Shown in pieces: positions 30,269 to 50,688 of a stretch of DNA of 64,000 nucleotides. This stretch comes from Sphingopyxis sp. FD7. Its GTDB lineage: Bacteria; Pseudomonadota; Alphaproteobacteria; Sphingomonadales; Sphingomonadaceae. A model generated the notes under the pieces. That model made no database searches. It was not told where the DNA came from and saw only the letters and a program-made list of their open reading frames with translations. The stretch spans positions 682,001-746,000 of the forward strand of contig NZ_AP017898.1 in assembly GCF_003609835.1 (NCBI RefSeq). The letters are read 5' to 3'. A program made the position numbers and the translations under genes. Each line of letters begins with the position of its first letter. The first letter of the stretch is position 1.

Positions 30269-30370
30269 CGGACCTGACAGGGTAGGGGATCGACGCTTTA
30301 CCTTGCGGGCGGAACCGTTAGCCTTCTCACCAACTGCGCGCAAAAGACGCGATTCGAGGAGAGAGAGGCG

Positions 30371-35143: not shown

Positions 35144-35188
35144 CGGCAAGGCGGCGGCTTGACGGGCCTTGCCTGAGCTTCGTTCATT

Positions 35189-35215
35189 CTATATAATTAG
35201 AATACTAAGTAATAG
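35189..35215 (+). promoter_or_regulatory. TTAG-N4-CTAA operator, site A
   Basis: TTAGAATACTAA at 35197-35208 lies in a strikingly AT-rich islet (TATATAATTAGAATACTAAG) in an otherwise GC-rich region. It is about 100 bases upstream of the kinase gene at 35312. It matches sites B-E of the proposed MarR regulon. Confidence 0.65.
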
Positions 35216-35311
35216 GATCGACCTGTCGAAAGCGACAGGCTCGGCCCGTCGGGGATTGCAAATGCCGGGATTATCCGAATGGTTTGACCGCATGGGTTGC
35301 GGGATGCAGGC

Positions 35312-36664
35312 ATGAGCGACTTTGCGGAGCGGCTGGCGGCAGCAATGTGGCGATTTGCGGGGAAGGGTGAAGTTTCCGCGCTTTCGCGCCTGTCGGGCGG
35401 CGCCAATATGGAAAGCTGGGCCTTTGAGTGGGTCGCTGGCGGCCGCACCGCGCCCTATGTCCTGCGGCGCGCGCCGTCGGCGGCCTATATGGCCGACCGT
35501 CCCTTTGGCCATGCGGACGAGGCGGCGCTGGTCATCGCCGCGCGCGCGGGCGGGGTGAAAGCTCCCGAGGTGGTCGGCGTGCTGGGCGACGCCGACGGTC
35601 TGGGTTCCGGCTATGTCATGCGCCGCGTGCTGGCGGAGGTGGCGCCCGCGACGATCCTTGCCGACCCGCCGCCGTCGTTGCTCGCCGATCTGGGGCGCGA
35701 ACTGGCGCATATCCACGCCATTCCGCTCGACACGATCCCAGCGGCGATCCCGCACATGGACACTGGCGAGGCGCTCGCGGCGCTCCGGGCGCGCTTCCTG
35801 GACCATGGCGGCGACCGGCCGGTGATCGCGCTGGCGATCAAATGGTGCGAGGAGCATCTGCCCGCGCCCGCCGATCCGGTGCTTGTCCACGGCGATTATC
35901 GCATGGGCAATATCATGGTCGATGCGGACGGACTTGCCGCGGTGCTCGACTGGGAGCTGGCGCATCGCGGCGATGCGCACGAGGATCTGGCGTTCGGCTG
36001 CATGAGCGTGTGGCGGTTCGGCCAGCTCGACCGGCCCGCCTTCGGACTTGGCAGCCTCGACGATTTTTTCGCGGCCTATGAAGCCGCGGGCGGCCGCCCC
36101 GTCGACCGCGAGCGCTTCCGTTTCTGGCTGGTCTATCGCACGCTCTGGTGGGCGCTGGGCTGCCTTCAGATGGGTGAGGCGTGGCGCAGCGGCGCCGACC
36201 GGACGGTCGAGCGCGTCGTCGTCGGGCGACGCACCGCCGAACAGGAACTCGACCTCGTGCGACTGCTGGAGATGGAGGCGCCCGAAGCCGAGCGCGCCCG
36301 CCCGCTTCCGCCATCGCCGCCCGCCGCGCCCGCCCCGACGGGCGAGCCGACGAACCGCGAGATGGTGCAGGCGGTGCGCGACTGGATCGAAGGCGCGATC
36401 AAGCCGCACGCCGCGGGCCATGCCAAGTTCGAGGCGGTGGTGGCAATGAACGCGCTCGGCATCGTGCTGCGCGACCTCGACGCCGGAACGCGCGCCGAGG
36501 ACAAGGCGCTGGCGGATGAGCTGCTGTCGGGCGCCGCGACGCTCGCGCGGCCCGTCTTGCTTGCAAATCTGCGCCGCGCGGTGCTCGACAAATGCGCGGT
36601 CGACAGCCCGAAATATGCCGCGCTCGCGGCGGCGCGCGCCGAATGGGGCGCTGATAAAGAATAA
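35312..36664 (+). CDS. APH-family phosphotransferase with C-terminal DUF6285-like domain
   Basis: Kinase-fold protein of 450 aa of the ACAD10/11 and LvaA type. The catalytic loop HGDYRMGNIMVD (Asp and Asn of the HGDxxxxN motif, near residue 195) and the metal motif VLDWELAHRGDAHEDLA are intact. After a Pro/Ala linker near residue 345, the last 100 residues form a helical domain (VQAVRDWIEGAIKPHAAGHAKFEAVV) that I believe corresponds to DUF6285. ATG 35312 is used. An acyl-CoA dehydrogenase gene follows 12 bases later. In levulinate catabolism such kinases phosphorylate 4-hydroxyacyl-CoA; that role here is inference. Confidence 0.82.
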   Translation: MSDFAERLAAAMWRFAGKGEVSALSRLSGGANMESWAFEWVAGGRTAPYVLRRAPSAAYMADRPFGHADEAALVIAARAGGVKAPEVVGVLGDADGLGSGYVMRRVLAEVAPATILADPPPSLLADLGRELAHIHAIPLDTIPAAIPHMDTGEALAALRARFLDHGGDRPVIALAIKWCEEHLPAPADPVLVHGDYRMGNIMVDADGLAAVLDWELAHRGDAHEDLAFGCMSVWRFGQLDRPAFGLGSLDDFFAAYEAAGGRPVDRERFRFWLVYRTLWWALGCLQMGEAWRSGADRTVERVVVGRRTAEQELDLVRLLEMEAPEAERARPLPPSPPAAPAPTGEPTNREMVQAVRDWIEGAIKPHAAGHAKFEAVVAMNALGIVLRDLDAGTRAEDKALADELLSGAATLARPVLLANLRRAVLDKCAVDSPKYAALAAARAEWGADKE

Positions 36665-36676
36665 GGGAGAGAGACG

Positions 36677-37972
36677 ATGGATTTTGCGGTTCCGGCCGAT
36701 TTGCAGGCCTATCTGGACGAACTCGACGCGTTCATCGATGCCGAGATCAGGCCGCTCGAGCAAGCCGACGACAATATCCGCTTTTTCGACCATCGCCGCG
36801 AACATGCGCGCACCGACTGGGACAATCAGGGCCTGCCGCGGCCCGAATGGGAGGCGCTGCTGAAAGAGGCGACGCGCCGCGCCGATGCCGCGGGGCATTG
36901 GCGCTTTTCGGCGCCGAAGAAATATGGCGGCAGGGACGGATCGAATCTCTGGATGGCGGTGATCCGCGAACATTTCGCCGCCAAGGGGCTGGGGCTGCAC
37001 AACGACTTGCAGAACGAGCACAGCATCGTCGGCAATTTCCCCTTTGTCGAAATGTTCGAGCAGTTTGCGACGAGCGAGGAGCAGAAGGCCGAGTTCATCC
37101 TCGGCGGCTTCGAGGGCAAGCGCCGCACTGCCTTTGGCCTGACCGAACCCGACCATGGCAGCGACGCGACGCATATGGAAACGCGCGCGGTGCGCGAAGC
37201 CCGTGACGGCGTCGACGGCTGGCGCATCAACGGGGCGAAGATGTGGACGACGGGGATGCACGTCGCGACGCATTGCGCGACCTTTTGCCGGACGAGCGGC
37301 GCGGACGGCGATGCACGGGGGATCACCTGCCTGCTCGTTCCCAATCCGTCGCCGGGGCTCAGAATCGAGGAATATCTCTGGACCTTCAACATGCCGACCG
37401 ACCATCCGCGCGTCAGCTTCACCGATGTGTGGGTGCCCGACAGCGCGCGGCTGGGGCCGGAAGGCGGCGGCCTGTCGATCGCGCAGAGCTTCGTTCACCA
37501 GAACCGCATCCGTCAGGCGGCGAGCTCGCTGGGCGCCGCGGTCTATTGTATCGAGGAGAGCGTTCGATACGCGCGGACACGCAAGCCTTTCGGCGAAGCG
37601 CTCGCCCGAAATCAGGCGATCCAGTTCCCGCTCGTCGAGCTGGCGACGCAGGCCGAAATGCTGCGCCTGCTGATCCGCAAGACCGCCTGGGACATGGACA
37701 ACACCCCGCACAAGGAGATCGAGCGCACGCTGTCGGACAAGGTCAGCATGTGCAATTACTGGGCGAACCGCCTCGTCTGCGAAGCCGCCGACCGCGCGAT
37801 GCAGGTCCATGGCGGCATCGGATATTCGCGGCACAAGCCCTTCGAGCATATCTATCGCCACCACCGCCGCTATCGCATCACCGAAGGGGCCGAGGAGATT
37901 CAGATGCGCAAGGTCGCGGCCTATCTCTTCGGCTATCTCGGCCCGCGGCGCGAGACGCTCGGGCGGATCTGA
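36677..37972 (+). CDS. Acyl-CoA dehydrogenase, ACAD10/11-like
   Basis: FAD flavoprotein of 431 aa. FAD/substrate loops are [20 protein letters not shown] and [11 protein letters not shown]. The C-terminal block is [28 protein letters not shown], with the expected catalytic Glu region in [16 protein letters not shown] good GGGAGAGAG ribosome binding site precedes the ATG. The kinase-dehydrogenase pair has the same content as the fused human ACAD10/11 proteins and as lvaA with lvaC. The leuC gene starts 8 bases after its stop, so all three are likely one transcript. Confidence 0.92.
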
Positions 37973-37980
37973 CGCGCGCC

Positions 37981-39399
37981 ATGGCCTTGCCCCGCACGCT
38001 GTACGACAAGATATGGGATGCGCATGCCGTCGCCGAGGATGATGGCGAGACGTTGCTCTATATCGACCTCCACCTGCTGCACGAGGTCACTTCGCCGCAG
38101 GCCTTTGCGGGATTGGATGCGGCCGGGCGCGCGGTGCGGCGCCCCGAACGCGCGCTCGCGCTGTCCGATCATAATGTGCCGACCGTGGGCCAGGCGCTCG
38201 GCCCGGCGGGCGTCGCCGACGCCGAAGCGCGCGCGCAACTGGAGGCGCTGGTCGCCAATACGCGGCGCTTCGGCATCGAAAATGTCCCGATGGGCGATCC
38301 GCGCGGCGGCATCGTTCATGTCGTCGGCCCGGAACAGGGACGATCGCAGCCGGGGATGACGATCGTTTGCGGCGACAGCCACACCTCGACCCACGGCGCC
38401 TTCGGCGCGCTCGCTTTCGGTATCGGGACGTCGGAGGTCGAGCATGTGCTCGCGACGCAGACGATCCGTCAGCGCCGCGCGCGCAACATGCGCGTGACCG
38501 TCGAGGGCGCGCTGGCGCCGCACGTTCAGGCCAAGGATCTGGCGCTTCACCTGCTCGGAACGATCGGCGTCGATGGAGCGGGCGGGCATGTCATCGAATA
38601 TGCGGGCGCGGCGGTGCGCGCGCTGTCGATGGAGGGGCGCATGACGCTGTGCAATCTCAGCATCGAAATGGGCGCGCGCGCCGGCCTGATCGCGCCCGAC
38701 GCCACGACGTTCGCCTATCTGAAGGGCCGCCCGGCGGCACCCGATGGCGCGGCATGGGACGCGGCGGTCGCGCGCTGGCAGGCGCTCGCGAGCGACAAGG
38801 ACGCCATGTTCGATCGCGAAATGCGGATCGACGCGCGCGACGTCCGGCCAATGGTGAGCTGGGGCACCAATCCGTCGCAGGTCGTGCCGATCGACGGGCG
38901 CGTCCCCGACCCGGCGGCGCTCGGCAGCGCCGACGCCCGCGCGGCGGCGGCGCGCGCGCTGACCTATATGGACCTAGAACCGGGAAGCCCCATCGCCGGA
39001 CAGCGGCTCGACCGGGTGTTTATCGGCAGCTGCACGAACAGCCGGATCGAGGATCTGCGCGCTGCTGCGGCGGTGGTGCGCGGCCGCCGCGTCGCGCCGC
39101 ACGTTCACGCGATGGTCGTCCCCGGATCGGGGCTGGTCAAGCGGCAGGCGGAGGCCGAGGGCATCGCCGCCACATTGCGCGACGCGGGGTTCGACTGGCG
39201 CGAACCCGGCTGTTCGATGTGCGTCGGCATGAATGCCGACCGGCTTGCGCCCGGCGAACGTTGCGCCGCGACGTCGAACCGCAATTTTGAAAATAGGCAG
39301 GGGCGCGGCGGGCGGACGCACCTGATGAGCCCGGCGCTGGCCGCGGCCAGCGCCATCGCGGGCGCCATCGCCTCGCCCGATATGCTGGCGGGGCCATGA
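37981..39399 (+). CDS. leuC: 3-isopropylmalate dehydratase large subunit (LeuC)
   Basis: Aconitase-family large subunit of 472 aa. Iron-sulfur ligands are visible in [12 protein letters not shown] and in the CSMC pair of [43 protein letters not shown] motifs and [18 protein letters not shown] follow the proteobacterial LeuC pattern closely. It sits behind an acyl-CoA dehydrogenase rather than with leuA or leuB. Its small subunit lies convergently 96 bases away on the other strand. It may be a second copy with a catabolic role or the relocated biosynthetic gene; the window cannot decide. Confidence 0.9.
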
Positions 39400-39415
39400 C
39401 CGGTTTCTCTTATAT

Positions 39416-39493
39416 CGTCATTCCGGCGAAGGCCGGAATCTCGTCCTTGCTTTTTTACGCACCGGCGAGATTCCGGCCTTCGCCGGAATGACG
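39416..39493. repeat. REP-like inverted repeat between leuC and leuD
   Basis: CGTCATTCCGGCGAAGGCCG on the left is mirrored by CGGCCTTCGCCGGAATGACG on the right, around a spacer with CTTGCTTTTTTACG. It lies between convergent genes and should act as a two-way terminator. Confidence 0.85.
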
Positions 39494-39495
39494 AT

Positions 39496-40101
39496 TCACA
39501 TGGGATCGATGGCGCGCCGATGCTCCGCCTCGAAGCGCGCGATGGCGTCGGCGTGGCGCATCGTGCGCTCGATGTCGTCGAGGCCTTCCATCAATATGCG
39601 CCGGTCGCCCGCGTCGACGGCAAAGCCGATCGACTGGCCGGAAGCGAGGCGGATCTGCCGGGCTTCGAGATCGACCTCGACCGGCGCATAATCGGTGGCT
39701 TCAACCTCGTGGCGCAACGCGGCGCATATTGGGTCGGGCAGGCGGATCAGCAGCAGCCCGCTCTTGCGCGCATTGCCCGCGAAAATATCGCCGAAACTCG
39801 GCGCGATGACGCAGCGGATGCCGAAGTCGACCAGCGCCCACACCGCATGTTCGCGCGACGAGCCGCATCCGAAATTGCGGTCTGCGATCAATATCTGCGC
39901 ATCGCGGCAGGGCGGGCGATTGAGGATGAAGTCTGCGCGCTCCTGGCCGTTCGCGTCATAGCGCAGCTCGCGGAACAGATGCCGACCCAGCCCCGTCCGC
40001 GTCAGCGCCTTCATGTAAAGCGCGGGAATGATCATGTCGGTGTCGATATTGGCGATCGGCAATGGCGCCGCCACCGCCTTCACCCGAACAAATGTCTGCA
40101 C
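39496..40101 (-). CDS. leuD: 3-isopropylmalate dehydratase small subunit (LeuD)
   Basis: Swivel-domain subunit of 201 aa that closes the active site of LeuC. ANIDTDMIIPALYMK, FGCGSSREHAVWALVDFGIRCVIAPSF and the ending with FEAEHRRAIDP are typical of the long proteobacterial LeuD. The start is GTG 40101, preceded by GGAGG on the minus strand; no ATG lies before the conserved core. Operator site B (40118-40131) is only 17 bases upstream of this start. It is convergent with leuC, an unusual layout because leuCD are usually one operon. Confidence 0.88.
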   Translation of the reverse strand: MQTFVRVKAVAAPLPIANIDTDMIIPALYMKALTRTGLGRHLFRELRYDANGQERADFILNRPPCRDAQILIADRNFGCGSSREHAVWALVDFGIRCVIAPSFGDIFAGNARKSGLLLIRLPDPICAALRHEVEATDYAPVEVDLEARQIRLASGQSIGFAVDAGDRRILMEGLDDIERTMRHADAIARFEAEHRRAIDPM

Positions 40102-40117
40102 CTCGCCTCCACTATAT

Positions 40118-40131
40118 CTTAGATTACTAAG
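40118..40131. promoter_or_regulatory. TTAG-N4-CTAA operator, site B
   Basis: CTTAGATTACTAAG is a near-perfect palindrome in the divergent region between leuD (minus) and the MarR gene at 40276 (plus). It is close enough to the leuD start to block its transcription or translation start region. Confidence 0.65.
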
Positions 40132-40275
40132 TAAGTGGATCGGCGGCGCTTGTCCAACCTTATCGCGCGCCAGGCGGCGACGAAGGGAGTTGCCGCGCGA
40201 ATCGCCGCGCCCTAAGAATTGGAAATCGAGCGGAAGGGCGCCCGGCGTCCGGGTCCGCGGCAGGGGAGCAGGAAG

Positions 40276-40782
40276 TTGGCGAAGAGCAAACAGGCGTACC
40301 GGCATCCGGCCGAATATTATACCGATCCCGAAAACAGCATCGGCTATCTCGCGCGCGTCGTCTTTCGTTCCTTTTCGCGGCTGCTGGAGCGGCGCACGCT
40401 GACGCACGATGTTTCGGCCGGTCAGTGGCGTTTCCTGCGCCAGTTGTGGCGCGAGGACGGGATTACCCAGCGCGAGCTGAGCGAGCGGGTGGGAATGCGC
40501 GAACCGACCACGGTGGTTGCGCTCAAGGGGCTGGAAAAGGCGGGACTGATTACCCGCAAGAAGACCGCCGAGGACCGGCGCAAGACCTTCATCTATCTGA
40601 CCCCGCACGCCAGGAAGCTCGAACTCATCCTCGCGCCGATGAATGCCGAAATCCACGAGATCGCGACCAAGGGCATGACCGATGCGGAGGTCGAAATGCT
40701 CCAGGCGCTGATGCGCCGCGTGATCGACAATCTGGCCGAGGAAACGCGCAAGCTGGCGGTGCTGTCCGAAATCAAGGCCTGA
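40276..40782 (+). CDS. MarR-family transcriptional regulator
   Basis: Winged helix-turn-helix protein of about 168 aa. The recognition region is ITQRELSERVGMREPTTVVALKGLEKAGLI, followed by the wing RKKTAEDRRKTFIYLT with the conserved DRR. N- and C-terminal helices would form the dimer. The start is uncertain: TTG 40276 follows AGGGGAGCAGGAAG and is preferred over TTG 40219. Operators lie on both sides of the gene (site B upstream, site E downstream), so it is the best candidate for the regulator of the TTAG-N4-CTAA sites. MarR proteins of such clusters often sense an acyl-CoA; that is inference. Confidence 0.85.
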   Translation: MAKSKQAYRHPAEYYTDPENSIGYLARVVFRSFSRLLERRTLTHDVSAGQWRFLRQLWREDGITQRELSERVGMREPTTVVALKGLEKAGLITRKKTAEDRRKTFIYLTPHARKLELILAPMNAEIHEIATKGMTDAEVEMLQALMRRVIDNLAEETRKLAVLSEIKA

Positions 40783-40814
40783 GCATCCGCCCCTTGCCCT
40801 CGCGACGGGAAACA

Positions 40815-40830
40815 GGTTAGTAATCTAACC
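40815..40830. promoter_or_regulatory. TTAG-N4-CTAA operator, site E
   Basis: GGTTAGTAATCTAACC is a perfect 16-bp palindrome, the best of the five sites. It is 24 bases upstream of the FMN reductase gene and just upstream of its ribosome binding site GGGAGGGGGAGG. Confidence 0.7.
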
Positions 40831-40853
40831 ATCTTGTCGCGGGAGGGGGAGGA

Positions 40854-41432
40854 ATGATGGTCAGTATCGCCGTTGTCGCCGGAAGCACGCGCGAAGGCTC
40901 CTATAATCGCGCGCTCGCCGAACTGGCCGCCGCCAGCCTCGAGGCGCAGGGTGCGGGGGTGACGCGCGTGGACCTTGGCGCCTTCGACCTGCCGCTCTAT
41001 TCGGCGGCGACCGAGGCAACCGCCTTTCCCCCCGACGCCGCGCGATTGAAGGCGCTGTTCGTCCAGCAGGACGGCCTGTTGTTCGTGTCGCCCGAATATA
41101 ATGGCTCGCTGCCGCCGCTGCTCAAAAATGCGATCGACTGGGCGTCGCGGCCGACGGGCGACGAGGGGCTGGTCGCGCTGACCGCCTATCGCGGCAAGGC
41201 GGCGGCGATCATGGCGGCGTCGATCAGCCCCTTTGGCGGGCTGCGCGGGTTGATGCACCTGCGCCAGATCCTGTCGACGGTGCAGATGATCGTGATCCCC
41301 GAACAGGTGGTGGTGCCGAACGCACACGCCGCCTTCGCCGAGGACGGCAGCCTGAAAGACGCGCTTCCCGCGTCGCTCGTTGAGCAAACCGCGGCGCGGC
41401 TGATTGCGGTCGCCAAAGCGCTGTCGGCTTAG
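40854..41432 (+). CDS. NAD(P)H-dependent FMN reductase
   Basis: Flavodoxin-like protein of 192 aa of the NADPH-dependent FMN reductase family. The FMN phosphate loop is VVAGSTREGSYNRALAELAA at the N-terminus. LLFVSPEYNGSLPPLLKNAIDWASRP is the second flavin-binding segment and is very typical. It has a strong ribosome binding site and the perfect operator site E. It could reduce flavin for an oxygenase or quinone; the partner is not visible in the window. ATG 40857 is an equal alternative start. Confidence 0.9.
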   Translation: MMVSIAVVAGSTREGSYNRALAELAAASLEAQGAGVTRVDLGAFDLPLYSAATEATAFPPDAARLKALFVQQDGLLFVSPEYNGSLPPLLKNAIDWASRPTGDEGLVALTAYRGKAAAIMAASISPFGGLRGLMHLRQILSTVQMIVIPEQVVVPNAHAAFAEDGSLKDALPASLVEQTAARLIAVAKALSA

Positions 41433-41476
41433 AGCGTAATCTTCATCAAATCGTCAGGCGGCGATTGCTCACCCGA

Positions 41477-41917
41477 TCAGCGCTTGGAGGCGCGCTCGAT
41501 ATTGTCGCCCCAGTCGGCTTCGAGCGCGTCGAACAGCGCGCCGAACCGGTCCTGACCGATTCGCGCCGCGATCTGCGCGGTCAGCGAATCCATCGCGCGC
41601 TGCGCATCCTTACGCATCCGGGCGCCGGTTTCGGTGAGCGAAACGATCATGTGCCGTCGGTCTTCGGGGTCGACGTCGAGCCGGACGATGCCGAGCTTCA
41701 CCATCTGGTTGATCGTGCTGTGGATCGCCTGCCGCGACACGCCGAGGTTGCGGGCGATGTCCGACGGGCGAACGATGCCGCTGACGATATTGGTCATCAC
41801 CATGGACTGCGGCCGGCTGACGTCGGGCCAGCCGAGGTCGTGGAGCCGCGCCTGCAACCCCTCGTCGAGCCAGCAGAAACGCTGAAACAGTGCGATGATC
41901 AACTGGTTGGTGCGCAT
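41477..41917 (-). CDS. MarR-family transcriptional regulator (second)
   Basis: Winged helix protein of 146 aa. It shows PSDIARNLGVSRQAIHSTINQMVKLGI as helix-turn-helix and RLDVDPEDRRHMIVSLTETG as the wing. The start is placed at ATG 41917 since the preceding frame has no homology; no clear ribosome binding site precedes it. It is divergent from the acyl-CoA ligase at 42064 with operator site C between them, so it may control that operon and itself. It is not closely similar to the MarR protein at 40276. Confidence 0.85.
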   Translation of the reverse strand: MRTNQLIIALFQRFCWLDEGLQARLHDLGWPDVSRPQSMVMTNIVSGIVRPSDIARNLGVSRQAIHSTINQMVKLGIVRLDVDPEDRRHMIVSLTETGARMRKDAQRAMDSLTAQIAARIGQDRFGALFDALEADWGDNIERASKR

Positions 41918-42011
41918 AGGATGGAAAGGACGATCCCGCCGCCGACGGCGTGTCGGCGCGCACACGCTAGTGGAGCGGACGGCACGAGGCAAGACAGGCC
42001 AGGCATTGCCA

Positions 42012-42042
42012 ATATAAAATACTTAGTATACTATCTATCTAG
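42012..42042. promoter_or_regulatory. TTAG-N4-CTAt operator, site C, with promoter-like AT islet
   Basis: CTTAGTATACTATCTATC starts at 42022, preceded by AATATAAAATA. It lies between the divergent MarR gene (41477) and acyl-CoA ligase (42064). The core CTTAGTAT-N-CTATCTA is shared with site D. The AT-rich block could include -10 elements. Confidence 0.65.
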
Positions 42043-42063
42043 CGAATGACGGAGAGGAACCGC

Positions 42064-43698
42064 ATGGATGGCTTGATGCAGAATGTGCCGCTCACGGTCG
42101 ACCGGATCATCGACCATGCGGCGGCGTGGCATGGCGCGCGCGAAATCGTCTCGCGCGATGCCGAGGGTCGCGTCAGCCGATCGACCTACGCCGATATCCA
42201 TGCCGATGCGAAGTGCGTGTCGAACGCATTGGCTGCGGAGGGTGTCAAGCCGGGCGACCGTGTCGCGACGATGGCGTGGAACGGCGCGCGGCACCTCGCC
42301 GCCTGGTATGGCGCGGCGGGGATGGGGGCGGTGCTGCATACGCTCAATCCGCGGCTGTTCCTCGAACAGATTGCCTATATCGCGAACCATGCGGGCGACC
42401 GGCTGCTGCTCGCCGACCCGGCGACCGCTGACCTCGTCGAGCAAATGCTGCCGCAGGTGCCGTCGATCGAGAAAGTGATCTTCTTCTGCGACGCCGCATC
42501 ATTGCCGCAGACGAGCTTTGCCGCGACCGCTTTCGACGACTGGATCGCGGGGCAGCCGGCCGAATATGCCTGGGGCGGGTTCGACGAAAATGCCGCGTGC
42601 GGCCTCTGCTACACCAGCGGGACGACGGGCAATCCCAAGGGCGTGCTCTATTCGCACCGCTCCAACTATATTCACGCGCTGATGACCTTGCAGCGCGACG
42701 CGCTCGCGCTGTCGGCGCGCGACACCGTGCTGCTCGTCGTGCCGATGTATCACGCGAATGCGTGGGGGGTGGTCTATTCGGCGCCCGCGGTGGGCGCCAA
42801 ACTTGTCCTGCCCGGCCAGCGGATGGATGGCGAATCCATCTATCATCTGATCGAGGAAGAGGGCGTCACTTACTCGGCGGCGGTGCCGACCGTGTGGCAG
42901 ATGTTGCTGCAATATATGCAGGAAAAGGGCAAAGGCTTCACGACATTGGAGCGCGTGACGATCGGCGGATCGGCGTGCCCCGAATCGATCATCCGCACCT
43001 TCCGCGACGATTATGGCGTCGACGTCATCCAGGGCTGGGGCATGACCGAAACCTCGCCGCTCGGCACCGTGTCGGTGCCCAATGCGTCGGTCGCGGCCAA
43101 ATCGGACGCCGAGCAGATGGCGTACAAGCTGAAGCAAGGGCGGCTGCTTTGCGGGCTGGAGATGAAGCTGGTCGATGACGCGGGCAATCGTGTGCCGCAC
43201 GACGGCAGGACGCCGGGGCGGCTGATGGTGAAAGGACCGACGATCGCCGCCGCCTATTATGGCGGCGAGGGCGACGACGTGCTCGACGCCGAGGGATTTT
43301 TCGACACCGGCGACGTCAGCACGATCGACGGCGAAGGCTATATGCAGATCACCGACCGCGCGAAGGATGTCGTGAAATCGGGCGGCGAGTGGATCAGTTC
43401 GATCGAGATCGAGAATATCGCGATGGGGCATGACGCGGTCGTCAACGCCGCGGTCGTCGGCGTCGCGCATCCCAAATGGGACGAGCGGCCGATCCTGCTG
43501 TGCCAGCTCAAACCCGGCGCGAGCGCCTCGGCGGACGATCTTCGCGCCTATCTGGACGGCCGGATCGCCAAATGGTGGATGCCCGACGATGTGCTGTTCG
43601 TCGACGACATCCCGCTGGGGCCGACGGGCAAGATCGACAAGAAGGCGATCCGCTCGGGGCTGGAGGGCTATACGCTGCCTTTCGAGGTCAGTCGCTGA
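42064..43698 (+). CDS. Acyl-CoA synthetase, medium/long-chain type
   Basis: AMP-forming ligase of 544 aa. The ATP loop YTSGTTGNPKG is near residue 185. Motif II is GWGMTETSPLGTVS, and the hinge is TGDVSTIDGEGYMQITDRAKDVVKSGGEWISS. The catalytic lysine lies in GPTGKIDKKAIR. The GGEWISS and MYHANAWG features resemble medium-chain and dicarboxylic acyl-CoA synthetases. ATG 42064 is chosen because GGAGAGGA at 42051 is well spaced for it; ATG 42046 lies before that site. It opens the operon-like run up to 48.1 kb behind operator site C. Confidence 0.9.
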   Translation: MDGLMQNVPLTVDRIIDHAAAWHGAREIVSRDAEGRVSRSTYADIHADAKCVSNALAAEGVKPGDRVATMAWNGARHLAAWYGAAGMGAVLHTLNPRLFLEQIAYIANHAGDRLLLADPATADLVEQMLPQVPSIEKVIFFCDAASLPQTSFAATAFDDWIAGQPAEYAWGGFDENAACGLCYTSGTTGNPKGVLYSHRSNYIHALMTLQRDALALSARDTVLLVVPMYHANAWGVVYSAPAVGAKLVLPGQRMDGESIYHLIEEEGVTYSAAVPTVWQMLLQYMQEKGKGFTTLERVTIGGSACPESIIRTFRDDYGVDVIQGWGMTETSPLGTVSVPNASVAAKSDAEQMAYKLKQGRLLCGLEMKLVDDAGNRVPHDGRTPGRLMVKGPTIAAAYYGGEGDDVLDAEGFFDTGDVSTIDGEGYMQITDRAKDVVKSGGEWISSIEIENIAMGHDAVVNAAVVGVAHPKWDERPILLCQLKPGASASADDLRAYLDGRIAKWWMPDDVLFVDDIPLGPTGKIDKKAIRSGLEGYTLPFEVSR

Positions 43699-43713
43699 GA
43701 TGTCCCCGGCTTT

Positions 43714-43789
43714 CGTCATCCCGGACTTGATCCGGGATCCATTCAACCGGCGCCGAGAAAATGGATCCCGGATCAAGTCCGGGATGACG
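43714..43789. repeat. REP-like inverted repeat
   Basis: CGTCATCCCGGACTTGATCC on the left is mirrored by GGATCAAGTCCGGGATGACG on the right. It lies between the acyl-CoA ligase and the alpha/beta hydrolase and may lower read-through. Confidence 0.85.
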
Positions 43790-43815
43790 ATGGTAATATA
43801 CAATAAGGAGAGACG

Positions 43816-44949
43816 ATGATGGTGGACCCGAACGGGATCGAGGGACTGGACGCAGAGTTCATCGGGCGGGTGTCGCCGACCGCGCCGCGTATCCAGGCGG
43901 GCGGGCATCCGTGCCAGGGCATCTACTGGACCGAGGCGGGCAAGCGGCCGAAGGTCGCGATCATCGCGACGCACTACAATGTCGATTTCTCCGAACATTA
44001 TATCGCGCCCTGGTTCGCGCGGCAGGGCTTCGGTTTCCTCGGCTGGAACACGCGCTATCGCGGTTTCGAGGACCAGTTCCTGCTCGAACATGCGGTGCTC
44101 GACATCGGCGTCGGCATGAAATGGCTGAAGGAGGAAGCGGGGGTCGAGGCGATCGTCATCCTCGGCAATTCGGGCGGCGGATCGCTGATGGGCGCCTATC
44201 AGGCCGAAGCGATCGCGCCGACGCTGACCGACCGGCTGCCAGCCGCGGGGCAGGACGCGCTGGCTGAGCTTATCAAGGGCGACCTCTATATCAGCTTCAA
44301 CGCGCATCAGGGGCGCCCCGAAGTGCTGACCGACTGGATGGACGCGTCGGTGATCGACGAGAATGATCCGACGCTGACCGATCCCGAACTCGACCCGTTC
44401 AATCCCGACAATGGCCCGCCCTATTCGGACGCCTTCATTACGAAATATCGCGCCGCGCAGCGCGCGCGCAACCAGCGGATCACCGACTGGGCGAAGGCCG
44501 AACTGGCGCGGCTCAATGCCGCCGGCATTCCCGATCGCATCTTTCCGATGTTCCGCTGCTGGGGCGATCTTCGCTGCGTCGATCCCGCGATCGACCCGTC
44601 GGACCGCAAGCCCAACTGGTGCTATCGCGGCGACCCGGCGCTCGCGAACCGCACGCCCAGCATCGGGCGCGCCAATACGCTGAAGACCTGGCTCAACATG
44701 TGGAGCCTCGAAACCTCGCCCTGCCAGGGCCAGCCGCACCTTGCGAAGCACGACACCCCTGCGCTGGTGGTGCAGGGCACCGCCGACACCGGCGTCTTCC
44801 CGAGCGATGCGCGCAAAATCTTCGATTTCCTCGGCAGCAGCGACAAACGGCTCGAACTGATCCCCGGCGCGCATTATTTCGAGGATTCGGTCGAGGAGCG
44901 GCGGGGCGCCGCCGACTTGGTCGGTGCTTGGATCCGGGAGAAGCTGTGA
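43816..44949 (+). CDS. Alpha/beta hydrolase family protein
   Basis: 377-aa protein with an alpha/beta hydrolase fold. The nucleophile elbow is VILGNSGGGSLMG with Ser intact. The region around HYNVDFSEHYIAPWFARQGFGF suits the oxyanion side, and IPGAHYFED provides the catalytic His. There is a large insertion of about 130 residues between strands 6 and 7. No signal peptide is seen. In an acyl-CoA context it may be a thioesterase or lactonase; the substrate is unknown. ATG 43819 is an alternative start. Confidence 0.78.
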   Translation: MMVDPNGIEGLDAEFIGRVSPTAPRIQAGGHPCQGIYWTEAGKRPKVAIIATHYNVDFSEHYIAPWFARQGFGFLGWNTRYRGFEDQFLLEHAVLDIGVGMKWLKEEAGVEAIVILGNSGGGSLMGAYQAEAIAPTLTDRLPAAGQDALAELIKGDLYISFNAHQGRPEVLTDWMDASVIDENDPTLTDPELDPFNPDNGPPYSDAFITKYRAAQRARNQRITDWAKAELARLNAAGIPDRIFPMFRCWGDLRCVDPAIDPSDRKPNWCYRGDPALANRTPSIGRANTLKTWLNMWSLETSPCQGQPHLAKHDTPALVVQGTADTGVFPSDARKIFDFLGSSDKRLELIPGAHYFEDSVEERRGAADLVGAWIREKL

Positions 44950-44950
44950 C

Positions 44951-45928
44951 GTGACGGCGGACGCCGATATCATCGACGAGCTGCGCGCCGCCGGGCTGGT
45001 GCGCGAGGGCGATGTGGCGCTCGAGCCACTCACCGGCGGCGTGTCGTGCGACGTGTGGAAGGTGGAAGCGCCGATCGGCCCGATCGTCGTCAAACGCCCG
45101 CTCGAACAATTGCGCGTCGCCGCTGAATGGCACGCGCCGGTCGAGCGCGGGCAGAGCGAGGTGCGCTGGCTCAAACGCGCGCGCAGCGTCGATCCGGCGA
45201 TCGCCCCCGAAGTGCTCGCCGAGCTGCCGGGCTATGGCTTTGCGATGCGGTTCCTGCCGGGCGCGCCGGTGTGGAAGGACGAACTCATCGCGGGGCGCGT
45301 CGATACCGGCTTTGCGACAGCGGTGGGGCGCAGCCTCGCCGCCGTGCATTCGGCCACCGCGAACAGCTCCGCCGACAAGGATGCCTTCGCAACCGACGCG
45401 ATGTTTCGTGCGCTGCGGATCGATCCCTTCCTGCTGTATGTGGCGCAGAAGGACGCCGAAACGGCATCCGTGCTTTACGCGCTCGCCGACGATCTGGCCG
45501 CGCGCAAGCTCGCGCTTGTCCACGGCGACGTGAGCCCCAAGAATATTCTCGTGGGCAAGGACGGTCCCGTCTTTCTCGACGCCGAATGCGCCGTCTATGG
45601 CGATCCGGCGTTCGACCTTGCCTTCTGCACCACCCATCTGCTCTTGAAAACCGTGTGGCTGGACGACGCCCGCCTAACCGAAGCCGCGACTGCGCTCGTC
45701 GCGGCCTATCGGGCGGGCATCGACTGGGAGGAGGCAGGCGGGCTGCTGCCTCGCGCCGGGAAACTCACCGCCGCGCTGCTCCTCGCGCGCGTCGAGGGCA
45801 AGTCGCCCGCACCCTATCTCACCGACCCCGACCACAGGCGCATCGTGCGCGACCAGGCGCGCGCGCTGCTGCTCACCCCGCTGCCCATCGACGCGCTTGT
45901 CGCGCAGTGGAAAAGGACATCAATATGA
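44951..45928 (+). CDS. APH-family kinase (second)
   Basis: Small-molecule kinase fold of 325 aa. The catalytic loop LVHGDVSPKNILVG (HGDxxxxN) and the metal motif FLDAECAVYGDPAFDLA are intact, so the enzyme should be active. GTG 44951 starts one base after the hydrolase stop. Its stop overlaps the ATG of the enolase-like gene (ATGA), which suggests coupled translation of the two. It lacks the C-terminal domain of the kinase at 35312. The substrate is unknown; a phosphorylated hydroxy acid for the next enzyme is a reasonable guess. Confidence 0.82.
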   Translation: MTADADIIDELRAAGLVREGDVALEPLTGGVSCDVWKVEAPIGPIVVKRPLEQLRVAAEWHAPVERGQSEVRWLKRARSVDPAIAPEVLAELPGYGFAMRFLPGAPVWKDELIAGRVDTGFATAVGRSLAAVHSATANSSADKDAFATDAMFRALRIDPFLLYVAQKDAETASVLYALADDLAARKLALVHGDVSPKNILVGKDGPVFLDAECAVYGDPAFDLAFCTTHLLLKTVWLDDARLTEAATALVAAYRAGIDWEEAGGLLPRAGKLTAALLLARVEGKSPAPYLTDPDHRRIVRDQARALLLTPLPIDALVAQWKRTSI

Positions 45929-47223
45929 CGTCGCGTATCGCCTCCGTGACCGGCCGCCAGCTCTGGGATTCGCGCGGGCGTCCGACGGTCGAGGCCGAAG
46001 TCACGCTCGAATCGGGTGCGACCGGGCGCGCCATCGCCCCGGCGGGCGCCTCGCGCGGCGCGCATGAGGCGATCGACCTGCGCGACGGTGGCGACGCCTT
46101 CGGCGGCTTTGGCGTGAACCGCGCGGTCGCGGGTATCGGCGCCGAGATTGCGGGTGCGATCACCGGCCTGGACGCGCGCGATCAGGCAGCGATCGACAAG
46201 GTCTTGTGCGACCTCGACGGCACGCCGAACAAGGCGCGGCTGGGCGCGAACGCGGTCGTGGCGGTGTCGATGGCGGTGCTTCACGCCGCGGCAGCGGATG
46301 CGCGCGCGCCGCTGTGGCGCTATCTCGCCGACGGACGCAAGGTTCGCATCCCGCTCCCCGAAATCCAGATTTTCGGCGGCGGCGCGCACGCCGGGCGGCG
46401 CACCGATGTGCAGGATTTCATGGTGATGTGCCCAAAGGCGGGCAGCTTCCGCCGCGCGCTCGAAATTACGGGCGATGTCTATCGCGCCGCCGGCAGACTG
46501 ATGGAAGCCAAAGGCCCGCTGTCGGGCGTCGCCGACGAGGGGGGCTGGTGGCCCAATTTTGCGTCGAACGAGGATGCGCTGGGCACGCTGACCAGGGCCA
46601 TCGAAGCGAGCGGCCACCGCGCGGGTGAGGAGGTGTTCATTTCGCTCGACATCGCCGCGAACGAACTCGGCGATGCGGGCGGCTACACGCTCGCGCTCGA
46701 CGACGGGAAGCTTTCGGGCGAGGACATGGCGGCGCGCATAGTCGAATGGGCCGGACGCTATCCGATCCTGTCGATCGAAGACCCCGCGGGGCAGGACGAC
46801 TGGACGACGATGGCGGCGGTCACCGCGGCGATCGGCGAGCGGGTGCAGATCATCGGCGACGACGTGCTCGTCACCAATGCCGATCGTGTGGAACGCGCGG
46901 CCGAAGCGGCGGTGTGCAATGCCGCGCTCATCAAGGTGAACCAGGTCGGCACGGTGACCGAAGCGAAGGCCGCGCTCGACGCCGCGGTGGCGCGCGGCTG
47001 GGGTGCGATCGTCTCGGCGCGTTCGGGCGAGAGCGAGGACGTCACCATCGCGCATCTCGCGACCGGCTGGGACGCCGGGCAGTTGAAAGTCGGCAGCTTC
47101 ACGCGATCCGAACGCATGGCGAAATGGAACGAAATGCTGCGGATCGAGGAAGCGATGGGCGCCGACGCCGAGTTTGCAGGCTTTTCGGCTTTCGCCGGGT
47201 CGATCGGCCGGGTCGCGGCATGA
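45925..47223 (+). CDS. Enolase paralogue with altered active site
   Basis: 432-aa protein colinear with enolase: GRQLWDSRGRPTVEAEV at the start, VADEGGWWPNFASNEDAL in the middle, and LIKVNQVGTVTEA and LRIEEAMGADAEF late. Kept residues by alignment from memory with E. coli enolase are His155, Glu205, Asp242, Glu285, Asp312, Lys337 and Lys388. Changed are Glu to Asp at 164 (VQDF) and the His of the SHRSGE motif to Ala at 365 (SARSGE), and the flexible loop reads AGASRGAHEA. Metal and proton-abstracting lysine sites therefore persist while phosphate and leaving-group contacts differ. It is unlikely to be the glycolytic enzyme. Confidence 0.85.
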   Translation: MTSRIASVTGRQLWDSRGRPTVEAEVTLESGATGRAIAPAGASRGAHEAIDLRDGGDAFGGFGVNRAVAGIGAEIAGAITGLDARDQAAIDKVLCDLDGTPNKARLGANAVVAVSMAVLHAAAADARAPLWRYLADGRKVRIPLPEIQIFGGGAHAGRRTDVQDFMVMCPKAGSFRRALEITGDVYRAAGRLMEAKGPLSGVADEGGWWPNFASNEDALGTLTRAIEASGHRAGEEVFISLDIAANELGDAGGYTLALDDGKLSGEDMAARIVEWAGRYPILSIEDPAGQDDWTTMAAVTAAIGERVQIIGDDVLVTNADRVERAAEAAVCNAALIKVNQVGTVTEAKAALDAAVARGWGAIVSARSGESEDVTIAHLATGWDAGQLKVGSFTRSERMAKWNEMLRIEEAMGADAEFAGFSAFAGSIGRVAA

Positions 47224-48140
47224 TCGTCCTGCACGCGCGCCCCAGCCCCGGTTTTCGTGAGGCGGTCGATACGATCTTCGGCCCCGGTACCGTCGTTCAC
47301 GTCGACGAGGCGGCGCCGCTCGACGATGTTGCGAGCGACATCACCGCGTTGCTCCACGTCCTTACGCCCGTTACACCGGAGTTCATTGCCTCGGCGCCCA
47401 AGCTCAAACTGATCCAGAAGCTCGGCGTCGGGGTCAACACCATCGCGCTCGATGCGGCGCGTGGGGCTGGCGTTGCGGTGTGCAACATGCCCGGCACCAA
47501 CAGCCAGGCGGTCGCCGAAATGGCGCTGTCGCTGATGATGGCGGTGCTGCGCCGTATCTGTTTCTTCGATGCGCGAACGCGCGCCGGGGAGGGGTGGACC
47601 GCCGACCCGTCCGAGCTCGACGCCGTGGGCGAAATCTCCGGGCGCACCGTCGGCCTCGTCGGCTTCGGCCATTCGGCGCAGCGGCTCGCGCCGGTGCTGG
47701 CGGCGCTAGGGGCGAAGGTCGTCTATACCGCGCGCAGTCCGCGCGACGTGCCGTATGATTTTCTGCCGCTCGATCGCCTGCTCGCCGATAGCGACATCGT
47801 CTCGCTACACGTCCCGCTGACTGACGAGACGCGCGCCAGCGTCGATCCCTTTGCAATGAAACGCGGCGCAGTGCTGGTGAACACTGCGCGCGGCGAACTC
47901 GTCGACGAAAACCGATTGGTCGAGGCGCTGACCTCCGGCCATTTGCGCGGTGCGGGCCTCGACGTCTTTGCCGAGGAGCCGCTGCCGCGCGGCAATCCGC
48001 TGCTCGGCCTGCCGAACGCGGTGCTCGCGCCGCATATCGCCTGGCTGACCCCCGAAACGCTCGTGCGCAGCCTGACGGTGGCGCATGAAAATTGCCGTCG
48101 GCTTGCGGCGGGTGAACCTCTGCTGCACCGAGTCACATGA
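47220..48140 (+). CDS. D-isomer specific 2-hydroxyacid dehydrogenase
   Basis: NAD(P)-dependent dehydrogenase of 306 aa. The dinucleotide loop is VGLVGFGHSAQRLAPVL, an unusual GxGxxxx variant with His-Ser. The catalytic triad is visible as Arg in NTARGELVDE, Glu in DVFAEEPLP and His in LAPHIAWLTPE. The ATG overlaps the enolase-like stop (ATGA). The gene would act on a 2-oxo or 2-hydroxy acid made or used by the enolase-like enzyme; the true substrate is unknown. Confidence 0.9.
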   Translation: MIVLHARPSPGFREAVDTIFGPGTVVHVDEAAPLDDVASDITALLHVLTPVTPEFIASAPKLKLIQKLGVGVNTIALDAARGAGVAVCNMPGTNSQAVAEMALSLMMAVLRRICFFDARTRAGEGWTADPSELDAVGEISGRTVGLVGFGHSAQRLAPVLAALGAKVVYTARSPRDVPYDFLPLDRLLADSDIVSLHVPLTDETRASVDPFAMKRGAVLVNTARGELVDENRLVEALTSGHLRGAGLDVFAEEPLPRGNPLLGLPNAVLAPHIAWLTPETLVRSLTVAHENCRRLAAGEPLLHRVT

Positions 48141-48149
48141 TTTCTCCTC

Positions 48150-48225
48150 CGTCGTTGCGCGCGGAGCAAAGCAATCCAGGGCGGTTTACGCACCTCTGGA
48201 TTGGTTGGCTTCGCTCGCAATGACG
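48150..48225. repeat. REP-like inverted repeat
   Basis: CGTCGTTGCGCGCGGAGCAA with AGCAATCCAG on the left is mirrored by CTGGATTGG and TTCGCTCGCAATGACG on the right. It follows the dehydrogenase gene and marks the end of that operon. Confidence 0.75.
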
Positions 48226-48244
48226 AAGTTTAAGGATTGAATGA

Positions 48245-48937
48245 ATGTCCCTCCCCATCGTCCTCATCACCGGCCAGCTGCTCACCGATGCCGTCTGGCA
48301 ACCCTTGCTCGATGCGTGGCCCGACCGCGACGTCATCGTCGCCGACAATCGGCGCGACGACACGATAGCGGGCTTCGCACAGCGCCTGCTCGACACGGCG
48401 CCGCCGAGATTCATACTGGTCGCGCACGCCATGGGCGGCTTCGTCGCGTTCGAGGTGATGCGCCGCGCGCCCGAACGCGTCGCGAAGCTCGCGCTCATTT
48501 CGACGCTCGCCTCGGCCGACGGGCCCGCGCAGACCGCGCGGCGGCAGGGCTATATCGATCTGGTGCAAAGCGGCCGGTTCGATCAGGTCGTCGAGGAGCG
48601 CATCCCCATGCTCTTTCCCGAAGCAAAGCGCGGCGACGAACGCCTGCTCGCCATCGCGCGGGAAATGGCGGCCGACACCGGCGCCGACACCTTCCTTGCG
48701 CAGCAGCGCGCGATCATGGCGCGCATCGACAGCCGCCCGCGCCTGCATGAGATCGCGGTGCCGACCCTGCTGATCCGGGGCGAGCAGGACGGCATCACCA
48801 GCCGCGCGCATCACGAGGAGATGCTGGAGGCGATACCGGGAGCGCGGCTGGAGGTGATCGCGGGGACCGGACATCTGCCGACTATCGAGGCACCCGAGGT
48901 GGTGGTGCCGTTGCTGACCGATTTCATCGGCGCATAA
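48245..48937 (+). CDS. Alpha/beta hydrolase-like protein lacking the nucleophile Ser
   Basis: 230-aa protein with an alpha/beta hydrolase fold. The usual GHSMGG elbow reads VAHAMGGFVAF, so the nucleophile position (residue 62) is Ala (codon GCC). The acid (LIRGEQDGIT) and the catalytic His (IAGTGHLPTIEAPE) are retained. It follows a palindrome and precedes the third acyl-CoA ligase. It may be a non-hydrolytic binding protein or use another mechanism, as in some lyases of this fold. Confidence 0.8.
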   Translation: MSLPIVLITGQLLTDAVWQPLLDAWPDRDVIVADNRRDDTIAGFAQRLLDTAPPRFILVAHAMGGFVAFEVMRRAPERVAKLALISTLASADGPAQTARRQGYIDLVQSGRFDQVVEERIPMLFPEAKRGDERLLAIAREMAADTGADTFLAQQRAIMARIDSRPRLHEIAVPTLLIRGEQDGITSRAHHEEMLEAIPGARLEVIAGTGHLPTIEAPEVVVPLLTDFIGA

Positions 48938-49075
48938 CAGTCGTCATTGCTTCGGCGCTGCGCTCATCGCACGATCAGCCCGCCGGGCGGGGTAGCTTCC
49001 GACGATTGTTGTCGGCAATATGGGGCGATCGAACAAGGCCGGTCCCCCTGCATTTTCTGGCCGGCCGGATATTTG

Positions 49076-49092
49076 CTTAGTATTCTATCTAA
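49076..49092. promoter_or_regulatory. TTAG-N4-CTAt operator, site D
   Basis: CTTAGTATTCTATCTAA lies 30 bases upstream of the acyl-CoA ligase at 49123. It shares CTTAGTAT-N-CTATCTA with site C. Confidence 0.65.
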
Positions 49093-49122: not shown

Positions 49123-50688
49123 ATGATCGACCTGGAGGCCATCCGGACGCTGGCGGATATTCCGGCGGCGCAGGCGCGCGCGCGCGGGCAGGCGACGGCG
49201 GTGAAGTTCGGAACACGCGAGACAAGCTTCGCCGCGCTCGATGCGGCGTCGAACCGCGTCGCCCATTCGCTGATCGCGGCGGGCATCGCGCCCGGCGACC
49301 GCGTGTCGGCGCTCACCAAGAACCACGACAGCTGGTATCCGCTTTTCTTCGGCACCGCGCGCGCCCGCGCCTGCTTCGCGCCGATCAATTGCCGCCTCGC
49401 GCCCGCGGAGATTGCCTTCATCCTGGGTGATGCCGGGCCGAAGCTGCTTTTCGTCGGCGAGGATTTCTTCGACTGCGCGCTCGCGGCCGTGGCCGATCTG
49501 GCGGCGCCGCCCCGCCTGATCGCGCTTTATGGCGAACATCCGGCGTTTGAACCCTTCGATAGGTGGCTCGGCGACGCATCCGATGCGCCGCCAGCCGATC
49601 CGCCGCAGCTCGCCGACGATGTGCTTCAGCTCTATACCAGTGGCACCACCGGACTGCCGAAGGGCGTCGTGCTGACCAACGCCAATTATCGCACCTTCCT
49701 GGAAGCGGCGACGCGCGTGGACGGTTTTGCTTATGGCGAGGATGAAACGGTGATGATCGTCATGCCGCTCTTCCATGTCGCGGGCACCAACGTCAGCTTC
49801 TCGGGGCTGGCGCAGGGCGGACGGCTCGTGCTCGTCAGGGATTTCACCGCCGCCGAGGCAGTGCGGATGCTGCGCGAGGAGGATGTCGCGCACGCCTTCC
49901 TTGCCCCCGCGATGATCCAGATGATGCTGCTCGATCCATCAGCGGGTGTGGGCGGCTATCCGCAGCTCAAGTCGATCGCTTACGGCGCCTCGCCGATCGC
50001 CGAAGATGTGCTGCGCCGCGCGCGGGCGACCTTCGGCTGCGATTTCGTGCAATTTTACGGGATGACCGAGTCGGCAGGCGGCGGCTCCTATCTTTCGCCC
50101 GCCGCGCACGACCTGCCCGGCAAGCTCACCTCTTGCGGCCAGCCGTGGCCGGGGGTCGAAATGGCGATCCTCGATGGCGAGGGGAAGGAGCTTGGCGACG
50201 GCGAGATCGGCGAGATCGCGATCCGCGGCGGCATCGTGATGAAGGGCTATTGGAACCGCGCGAGCGCGACCGAGGAGACGCTGGCAGGCGGCTGGCTCCA
50301 CACCGGCGATGTTGGTTACCGCGACGCCGACGGCTTTTATTACGTCCACGACCGGATCAAGGACATGATCGTGTCGGGCGGCGAAAATGTCTATCCGGCC
50401 GAGGTCGAAAGCGCGATCATGGGCTGTCCGGGCGTTGCCGATGTCGCGGTGATCGGCGTCCCCGACGACAAATGGGGCGAGGGGGTGAAGGCGCTGGTCG
50501 TTCCCGCCGCGGGCACGGCGCCCGACCCCGCTGCGATCATCGCCTGGGCGCGCGAGCGCATCGCGGCGTACAAGGTGCCCAAAAGCATCGAGTTCATCGA
50601 CGCGCTGCCGCGCAATCCGTCGGGCAAGGTGCTCCGCCGCGAACTGCGCGCGCCTTATTGGGAAGGCCGCGACCGCGCGGTGGGGTGA
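49123..50688 (+). CDS. Acyl-CoA synthetase (AMP-forming, third)
   Basis: ANL-superfamily ligase of 521 aa. The ATP loop is YTSGTTGLPKG, motif II FYGMTESAGGGSYLS, the hinge TGDVGYRDADGFYYVHDRIKDMI, and the catalytic lysine lies in NPSGKVLRRELRAPYWEG. It is similar along its length to the ligase at 30371. A CGGGAGAG ribosome binding site precedes the ATG, and operator site D lies just upstream. It is a single-gene unit ended by a short palindrome at 50708. Confidence 0.9.
   Translation: MIDLEAIRTLADIPAAQARARGQATAVKFGTRETSFAALDAASNRVAHSLIAAGIAPGDRVSALTKNHDSWYPLFFGTARARACFAPINCRLAPAEIAFILGDAGPKLLFVGEDFFDCALAAVADLAAPPRLIALYGEHPAFEPFDRWLGDASDAPPADPPQLADDVLQLYTSGTTGLPKGVVLTNANYRTFLEAATRVDGFAYGEDETVMIVMPLFHVAGTNVSFSGLAQGGRLVLVRDFTAAEAVRMLREEDVAHAFLAPAMIQMMLLDPSAGVGGYPQLKSIAYGASPIAEDVLRRARATFGCDFVQFYGMTESAGGGSYLSPAAHDLPGKLTSCGQPWPGVEMAILDGEGKELGDGEIGEIAIRGGIVMKGYWNRASATEETLAGGWLHTGDVGYRDADGFYYVHDRIKDMIVSGGENVYPAEVESAIMGCPGVADVAVIGVPDDKWGEGVKALVVPAAGTAPDPAAIIAWARERIAAYKVPKSIEFIDALPRNPSGKVLRRELRAPYWEGRDRAVG

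Follow-up and report, generated by a model that had tools for sequence, protein, structure and literature searches.

A recurring TTAG-N4-CTAA palindrome as the likely operator of a MarR-type regulator in an acid/acyl-CoA catabolic gene cluster of Sphingopyxis sp. FD7

Which regulator, if any, acts through a short palindrome, TTAG-N4-CTA(A/T), that recurs in front of the genes of an acid-catabolism cluster encoding two MarR-type proteins, here named MarR1 and MarR2? This question is raised by a stretch of 64,000 nucleotides of the Sphingopyxis sp. FD7 genome (contig NZ_AP017898.1, positions 682,001 to 746,000), hereafter the window, within which positions are counted from the first letter. From the sequence evidence assembled below we consider it quite probable that five palindromes in this cluster, together with two at a distant locus, are operators of MarR1, the predicted repressor of one acid/acyl-coenzyme A (CoA) catabolic pathway.

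The palindromes and their surroundings

The original prediction had placed five such sites (S1 to S5) in front of genes of the cluster and none elsewhere in the window. All five were recovered at the predicted positions (Table 1), and a search of the 64 kb with the pattern TTAGNNNNCTAW gave eight strand matches, which correspond to these five sites and no other; when the window was shuffled 100 times, the mean was 0.14 matches and the maximum 2. Each site is located upstream of a gene, at 17 to 103 bp from the start codon chosen in this analysis (103 bp for the kinase gene, 17 bp for leuD, 25 bp for the FMN-reductase gene, 29 bp for ligase 2 and 34 bp for ligase 3), and the two MarR genes said to lie among the sites are indeed present, on opposite strands.

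A genome-wide search (two contigs, 3.94 Mb in all) returned 13 strand matches, equivalent to nine distinct sites. Seven of these are upstream of genes and fall into two loci, i.e. the five in the window and two at the distant locus, and the other two (C1:1541515 and C2:181086) are embedded in open frames that are 615 and 421 amino acids long. Since a plain composition estimate predicts approximately 41 strand matches and the reversed pattern occurs 101 times, the motif is rare in this genome; genome-wide abundance, which would have refuted the original prediction, is not observed. The location of five of the nine sites within 13.9 kb corresponds to a binomial probability of 7e-11, calculated for an interval that was picked after the sites had been seen, and conservation in relatives therefore constitutes better evidence than this figure.

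At S1 and S2 the flanks extend the two-fold symmetry to about 20 bp, approximately TWACTTAG-N4-CTAAGTWA, which is close to the footprints of about 22 bp expected for MarR proteins (PMC3737563). The extended palindrome ACTTAGNATNCTAAGT was found, with at most two mismatches, at five sites genome-wide, all of which belong to the predicted regulon, and with exactly three mismatches at five more, including S5 and C1:898698; the reversed control is commoner than the extended pattern in this search (48 strand matches versus 20). A promoter scan of the region returned eight promoter-like matches against a shuffle mean of 1.6, two of which touch S1 and S4 (Table 1), and the TTGC of the S4-associated match is present at the corresponding position in 33 of 37 S4 sites of relatives. 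Considering that the right part of S4 coincides with this putative -10 element, we infer that the overlap would account for the final T of S4, where A might be expected. No structured RNA element was detected across 34-51 kb with Rfam at gathering thresholds.

Conservation in relatives and assignment to MarR1

Six aligned MarR1 orthologs served as the query for a scan of GTDB contigs, which produced 76 loci; in 64 of them the encoded MarR1 reaches 60% identity or more. When loci with matched flanking genes are counted, and the others dropped, the palindrome is kept at the orthologous slot of S1 in 8/8 loci (those with a usable aph1 upstream region), of S2 in 38/39, of S3 in 46/49, of S4 in 37/41 and of S5 in 16/19, and it is also found upstream of leuC in 21 of the 30 loci where leuC does not directly follow the acyl-CoA dehydrogenase gene (acad). 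Six control patterns gave, for all slots together, a single match, at S1. As the half-sites are fixed by the search pattern, the free observation is that the slot holds a match whose spacer differs between loci: the 38 matches at S2 comprise 14 different 12-mers, which vary in the spacer alone. The final base is T in 36 of 37 matches at S4 and in all 16 at S5, and A at the remaining slots. Within the cluster spans, 202 sites lie outside matched coding stretches, a class that also holds genes left unmatched by the comparison, and none inside (118 kb versus 552 kb); the corresponding numbers for the reversed control pattern are seven and five. A site is located within 1 kb of MarR1 in 57 of the 64 loci.

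A second line of evidence comes from 80 Sphingopyxis genomes, FD7 included, in which palindromic sites count twice as strand matches and kinship was ignored. The 62 genomes with MarR1 (at least 77% identity) have a median of 20 strand matches and the 18 without it a median of 5 (p ~2e-9), the control pattern giving p 0.12; the same trend was obtained for the cleaner genomes alone (58 with versus 12 without MarR1, p ~2e-7). MarR1 itself carries a winged-helix MarR domain (PF01047, E 7.1e-15, 55.1 bits versus a cut-off of 24.6), is 99% identical to MarR1 of Sphingopyxis sp. LK2115, and has the well-kept pseudopalindrome S2 beside its own gene. Near distant MarR1-like genes (37-39% identity) a site was found in three of seven loci, representing two distinct sites (L048; L050 and L052 overlap). 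The proposal that one MarR regulon covers the kinase/dehydrogenase/leuC operon, leuD, the FMN-reductase gene, the ligase operon and the third ligase is thus strongly supported: the sites are conserved in relatives, and across the genus they are linked to MarR1.

MarR2 orthologs are present in 60 genomes of the genus, each of which also has MarR1, while G200 and G247 have MarR1 only. Among the 64 loci, 15 are devoid of a MarR2 ortholog in the DNA examined, eight of them with sites and seven without. Sites without MarR2 occur in L098, L102, L109, L110, L123, L124 and L127, L076 being left out because its genome, G214, carries MarR2 approximately 12 kb from MarR1, just beyond the locus DNA; for G200 (L098) and G074 (L123) a search of the whole genome, at the thresholds applied, also failed to reveal a MarR2 ortholog. 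Because the sites persist in loci without MarR2, they are assigned to MarR1: the distribution points to sites that follow MarR1 and not MarR2.

Several observations weigh against this assignment. Two genomes with MarR1, G199 and G247, have few matches (5 and 6), and G245 (8% contamination) has 19 matches and no MarR1 ortholog. Seven of the 64 MarR1 loci (L082, L103, L111, L112, L118, L119 and L125) are without a site in the DNA examined; three of these have only aph2 beside MarR1 and one only acad, and the remaining three have no operon genes at 50% coverage besides remote ligases. S3 is not matched by the extended pattern even at three mismatches. Both loci and genomes are related, so that the counts are not independent, and within the genus every MarR2 ortholog shares its genome with MarR1, so that the effects of the two are confounded there. 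Finally, a distant MarR2-like gene (38% identity, L136) adjoins the site TTAGAATACTAT.

The last two points also favour the alternative that survives best, namely that MarR1 and MarR2 both bind the same palindrome, perhaps in response to different ligands, so that the MarR2/ligase promoter, at least, would be a switch with two inputs. This arrangement would suit the divergent orientation of MarR2 and ligase 2 with S4 between them, and the gap between these two genes revealed no further strongly conserved palindrome. It is nevertheless improbable, as sites are retained where the DNA examined lacks a MarR2 ortholog, among them those preceding ligase 2 in L109 and L110 (the latter with a 42% MarR2-like gene 8 kb away), as MarR2-like genes (37-48%) in five genomes without a MarR1 match have no site within 1.5 kb in any of seven loci (L056-L062), and as the two proteins are alignable over just 43 residues, with 21% identity.

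We give much less credence to the idea that the palindromes belong to an unrelated regulator and are conserved along with the cluster, or that they are mere AT-rich promoter cores. The overlap of S4 with a promoter-like -10 element agrees with the latter, but no promoter-like match overlaps S2, S3 or S5, the two-fold symmetry at S1 and S2 is that expected of a dimer-binding site, and the motif is tied to the presence of MarR1 across the genus. Still less plausible is that MarR2 alone regulates the sites, as its position next to S4 might suggest: the sites stay in G200 and G074, the MarR2 ortholog of G150 (64%) is siteless within 1.5 kb although MarR1 there has two sites, and G248, with a 47% MarR2-like protein and no MarR1 match, contains one strand match genome-wide; MarR2 was rejected as sole regulator. 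Chance is refuted by the window shuffles, the slot conservation, the genus-wide link and the absence of the sites from matched coding stretches.

Gene set, second locus and proposed mechanism

The genes surrounding S1 to S5, and the sites of the second locus, are listed in Table 1. The group behind S4 comprises ligase 2, the alpha/beta-hydrolase-like protein, aph2, the enolase paralog, the 2-hydroxyacid dehydrogenase and the alpha/beta hydrolase. Because leuD is convergent with leuC, the two genes use different sites; this convergent rather than co-directional order is kept in many relatives. A second leuC copy is located at C1:2936368 and is 62% identical to the cluster paralog.

Table 1. Coordinates of predicted operators, promoter-like sequences and genes in the window, and of the two sites of the second locus (C1 coordinates)
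Feature	Position	Strand	Remarks
S1 TTAGAATACTAA	35197..35208		predicted operator before the kinase/acyl-CoA dehydrogenase/leuC operon
S2 TTAGATTACTAA	40119..40130		predicted operator between divergent leuD and marR1
S3 TTAGTAATCTAA	40817..40828		predicted operator before the FMN-reductase-like gene; poor fit to extended operator
S4 TTAGTATACTAT	42023..42034		predicted operator before the ligase operon, between MarR2 (-) and ligase 2
S5 TTAGTATTCTAT	49077..49088		predicted operator before ligase 3
Promoter-like TTGCCT-17-TATAAT	35169..35197	+	-10 ends on first base of S1
Promoter-like TTGCCA-17-TACTAT	42006..42034	+	-10 is right part of S4 and ends on its last base
aph1, APH-type phosphotransferase	35312..36664	+	PF01636 and DUF6285
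acad, acyl-CoA dehydrogenase	36677..37972	+	
leuC paralog, 3-isopropylmalate dehydratase large subunit	37981..39399	+	
leuD paralog	39496..40101	-	GTG start; convergent with leuC
MarR1	40276..40782	+	likely cognate regulator; PF01047
NADPH-dependent FMN-reductase-like protein	40854..41432	+	every score under family cut-offs
MarR2	41477..41917	-	second MarR-type regulator; PF12802
Acyl-CoA ligase 2	42064..43698	+	PRK06018 subfamily
Alpha/beta-hydrolase-like protein	43816..44949	+	
aph2, APH-type kinase	44951..45928	+	
Enolase paralog	45925..47223	+	45% identity to other enolase found in genome
D-2-hydroxyacid dehydrogenase	47220..48140	+	
Alpha/beta hydrolase	48245..48937	+	
Acyl-CoA ligase 3	49123..50688	+	
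Second-locus site	C1:1781905		between HMG-CoA-lyase-like gene and CaiB-type CoA transferase
Second-locus site	C1:1783776		between DUF3237 gene and TonB receptor

The second locus is 1.06 Mb from the cluster. Its two sites are 1.9 kb apart, and both precede genes if the start codons favoured by homology are adopted; with their longest mechanical frames, the 3-hydroxy-3-methylglutaryl-CoA (HMG-CoA)-lyase-like and DUF3237 genes would extend across them. A MarR gene local to this locus was considered and rejected, the nearest of 27 genomic matches to PF12802 (MarR_2) being approximately 0.21 Mb away, at 1,995,754 (PF01047 was not searched genome-wide). In L140 and L141 the lyase, CoA transferase and DUF3237 genes, with their sites, adjoin ligase 3 of the MarR1 cluster, while in L142 this locus is distant from the cluster, as in FD7; several Sphingomonas loci have the CoA transferase and lyase within the cluster, with one site each. 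Counting all loci with a matched gene start, the FD7 genome included, a site precedes the lyase in 9/10, the CoA transferase in 11/13, DUF3237 in 6/6 and the glyoxalase in 3/11 loci, and none precedes MFS (0/4), SnoaL (0/4), CMD (0/3) or acadB (0/3). Since the distant locus adjoins the cluster in two of the three relatives examined, it appears that a single regulon has been split between two loci in FD7, and the HMG-CoA-lyase-like gene, the CaiB-type CoA transferase and DUF3237 are predicted to be part of it. The TonB receptor adjoining C1:1783776, for which identity in L140, L141 and L142 is just 27-29%, is perhaps also a member.

According to the proposed mechanism, MarR1 would bind the palindromes as a dimer, each dimer covering the extended 20 bp, which would overlap the -10 element or immediately follow it. 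The bound protein would keep RNA polymerase from the promoters of the kinase operon, leuD, the FMN-reductase gene and the ligases, and through S2 repress its own gene. Such repression by covering of the promoter is likely, because S1 and S4 touch promoter-like sequences and sites are located 17-34 bp before four starts. The inducer would be an intermediate of the pathway, perhaps a CoA thioester that one of the ligases produces; it would release MarR1 and so open the whole gene set together. Responsiveness to a CoA thioester is suggested by gene content, ligases 2 and 3 both having sites, and is plausible because the MarR regulators CouR and FerC respond to such compounds. MarR2 may tune the ligase operon only, or sense a second signal.

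Further palindromes were seen in the cluster and in relatives. No exact match precedes ligase 1 (at 30371); TTAGCCTTCTCA at 30318-30329, one mismatch from the palindrome and 41 bp upstream of this gene, is possibly a weak or decayed further site. In L064 ligase 1 is preceded by TTAGCTTTCTCA, also with one mismatch, and in L099 by no such site. A second palindrome, of ATAG-N4-CTAA type with a G+C-richer spacer, is located approximately 35-65 bp before marR1 in nine loci (L087, L090-L094, L096, L098 and L099) and possibly represents an extra autoregulatory site. G201, G202 and G206 share, away from the cluster, further TTAG-N4-CTAA palindromes with G+C-rich spacers (TTAGGGTCCTAA, TTAGGTCCCTAA), a type absent from the nine sites of FD7, which may belong to another regulator. 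At four places examined in G202 the extra palindromes adjoin mixed genes; one palindrome of this genome, TTAGATTTCTAA (L163, position 1966), precedes a TonB-receptor-like reading frame that may be one more member of the regulon. In an actinobacterium, the tandem palindromes TTAGCTGGCTAA and TTAGCCGACTAA (L137, 10405-10428) adjoin a MarR gene whose product is 33% identical.

The pathway and comparison with known systems

A divergent enolase paralog is located beside an APH-type kinase and a 2-hydroxyacid dehydrogenase (44951-47223), a neighbourhood that suggests a phosphorylated hydroxy-acid intermediate. A bolder and tentative proposal, which we hold to be possible rather than probable, is that MarR1 acts as master switch for a sphingomonad pathway not described before, where core-enzyme paralogs (enolase with its APH-type kinase, LeuC/LeuD, the HMG-CoA-lyase-like enzyme and the 2-hydroxyacid dehydrogenase) process a phosphorylated, CoA-bound hydroxy acid, and whose promoters are marked by TTAG-N4-CTAA sites; if true, these sites would allow the pathway to be read from any genome, even when split. 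In dozens of sphingomonads a gene set is now linked to a regulator and to the operator through which it likely acts, and the operator can be used to gather missing pathway genes, as it already has for the lyase, the CoA transferase, DUF3237 and perhaps the TonB receptor, and thereby to narrow the pathway chemistry. MarR1 would also be a potential biosensor once its inducer is identified.

In PMC3737563, SCO3205, a MarR-family protein of Streptomyces coelicolor, is described with a 12-bp pseudopalindromic core (TTnAAnnnTCAA), with two sites upstream of its own gene that serve SCO3205 and a divergent gene, with more genomic sites located by means of the core, and with expected footprints of the length noted above, all of which resembles the FD7 system. 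It differs in the letters of the core and in having binding data and a crystal structure; the seven FD7 sites, for their part, appear to serve a single pathway.

CouR and FerC are, according to the review PMC5487221, local MarR repressors of catabolic (hydroxycinnamate) genes with CoA thioesters as inducers, while no hydroxycinnamate genes were recognised here. Among solved chains the best match of MarR2 is 5cyv (E 6e-6), named CouR in the same review, and that of MarR1 is PA3341 (2fbh), the CouR entry 6c28 reaching only E 5e-4. The review also presents HucR of Deinococcus with a single urate-responsive site, in which it differs from MarR1. Saro_0803 of Novosphingobium, likewise a sphingomonad MarR-type regulator, has, according to PMC10046596, a 22-bp AT-rich site near a -10 box, but its repeat, GCAATA-N6-TATTGC, is another motif.

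MarR1 is under the cut-off of every NCBIfam model that it matched, including the curated ones for HpaR (54.7 versus 121.2 bits), SlyA (46 versus 120 bits) and Saro_0803 (40.1 versus 200 bits), and an open-access library listed no paper whose title addresses the motif or the regulon. The HucR operator contains TTAG-N4-CTA, and this type of core may be known in the MarR family. On the evidence as a whole, this is a well-supported new local MarR catabolic regulon of an already known type, ordinary as a regulatory mechanism.

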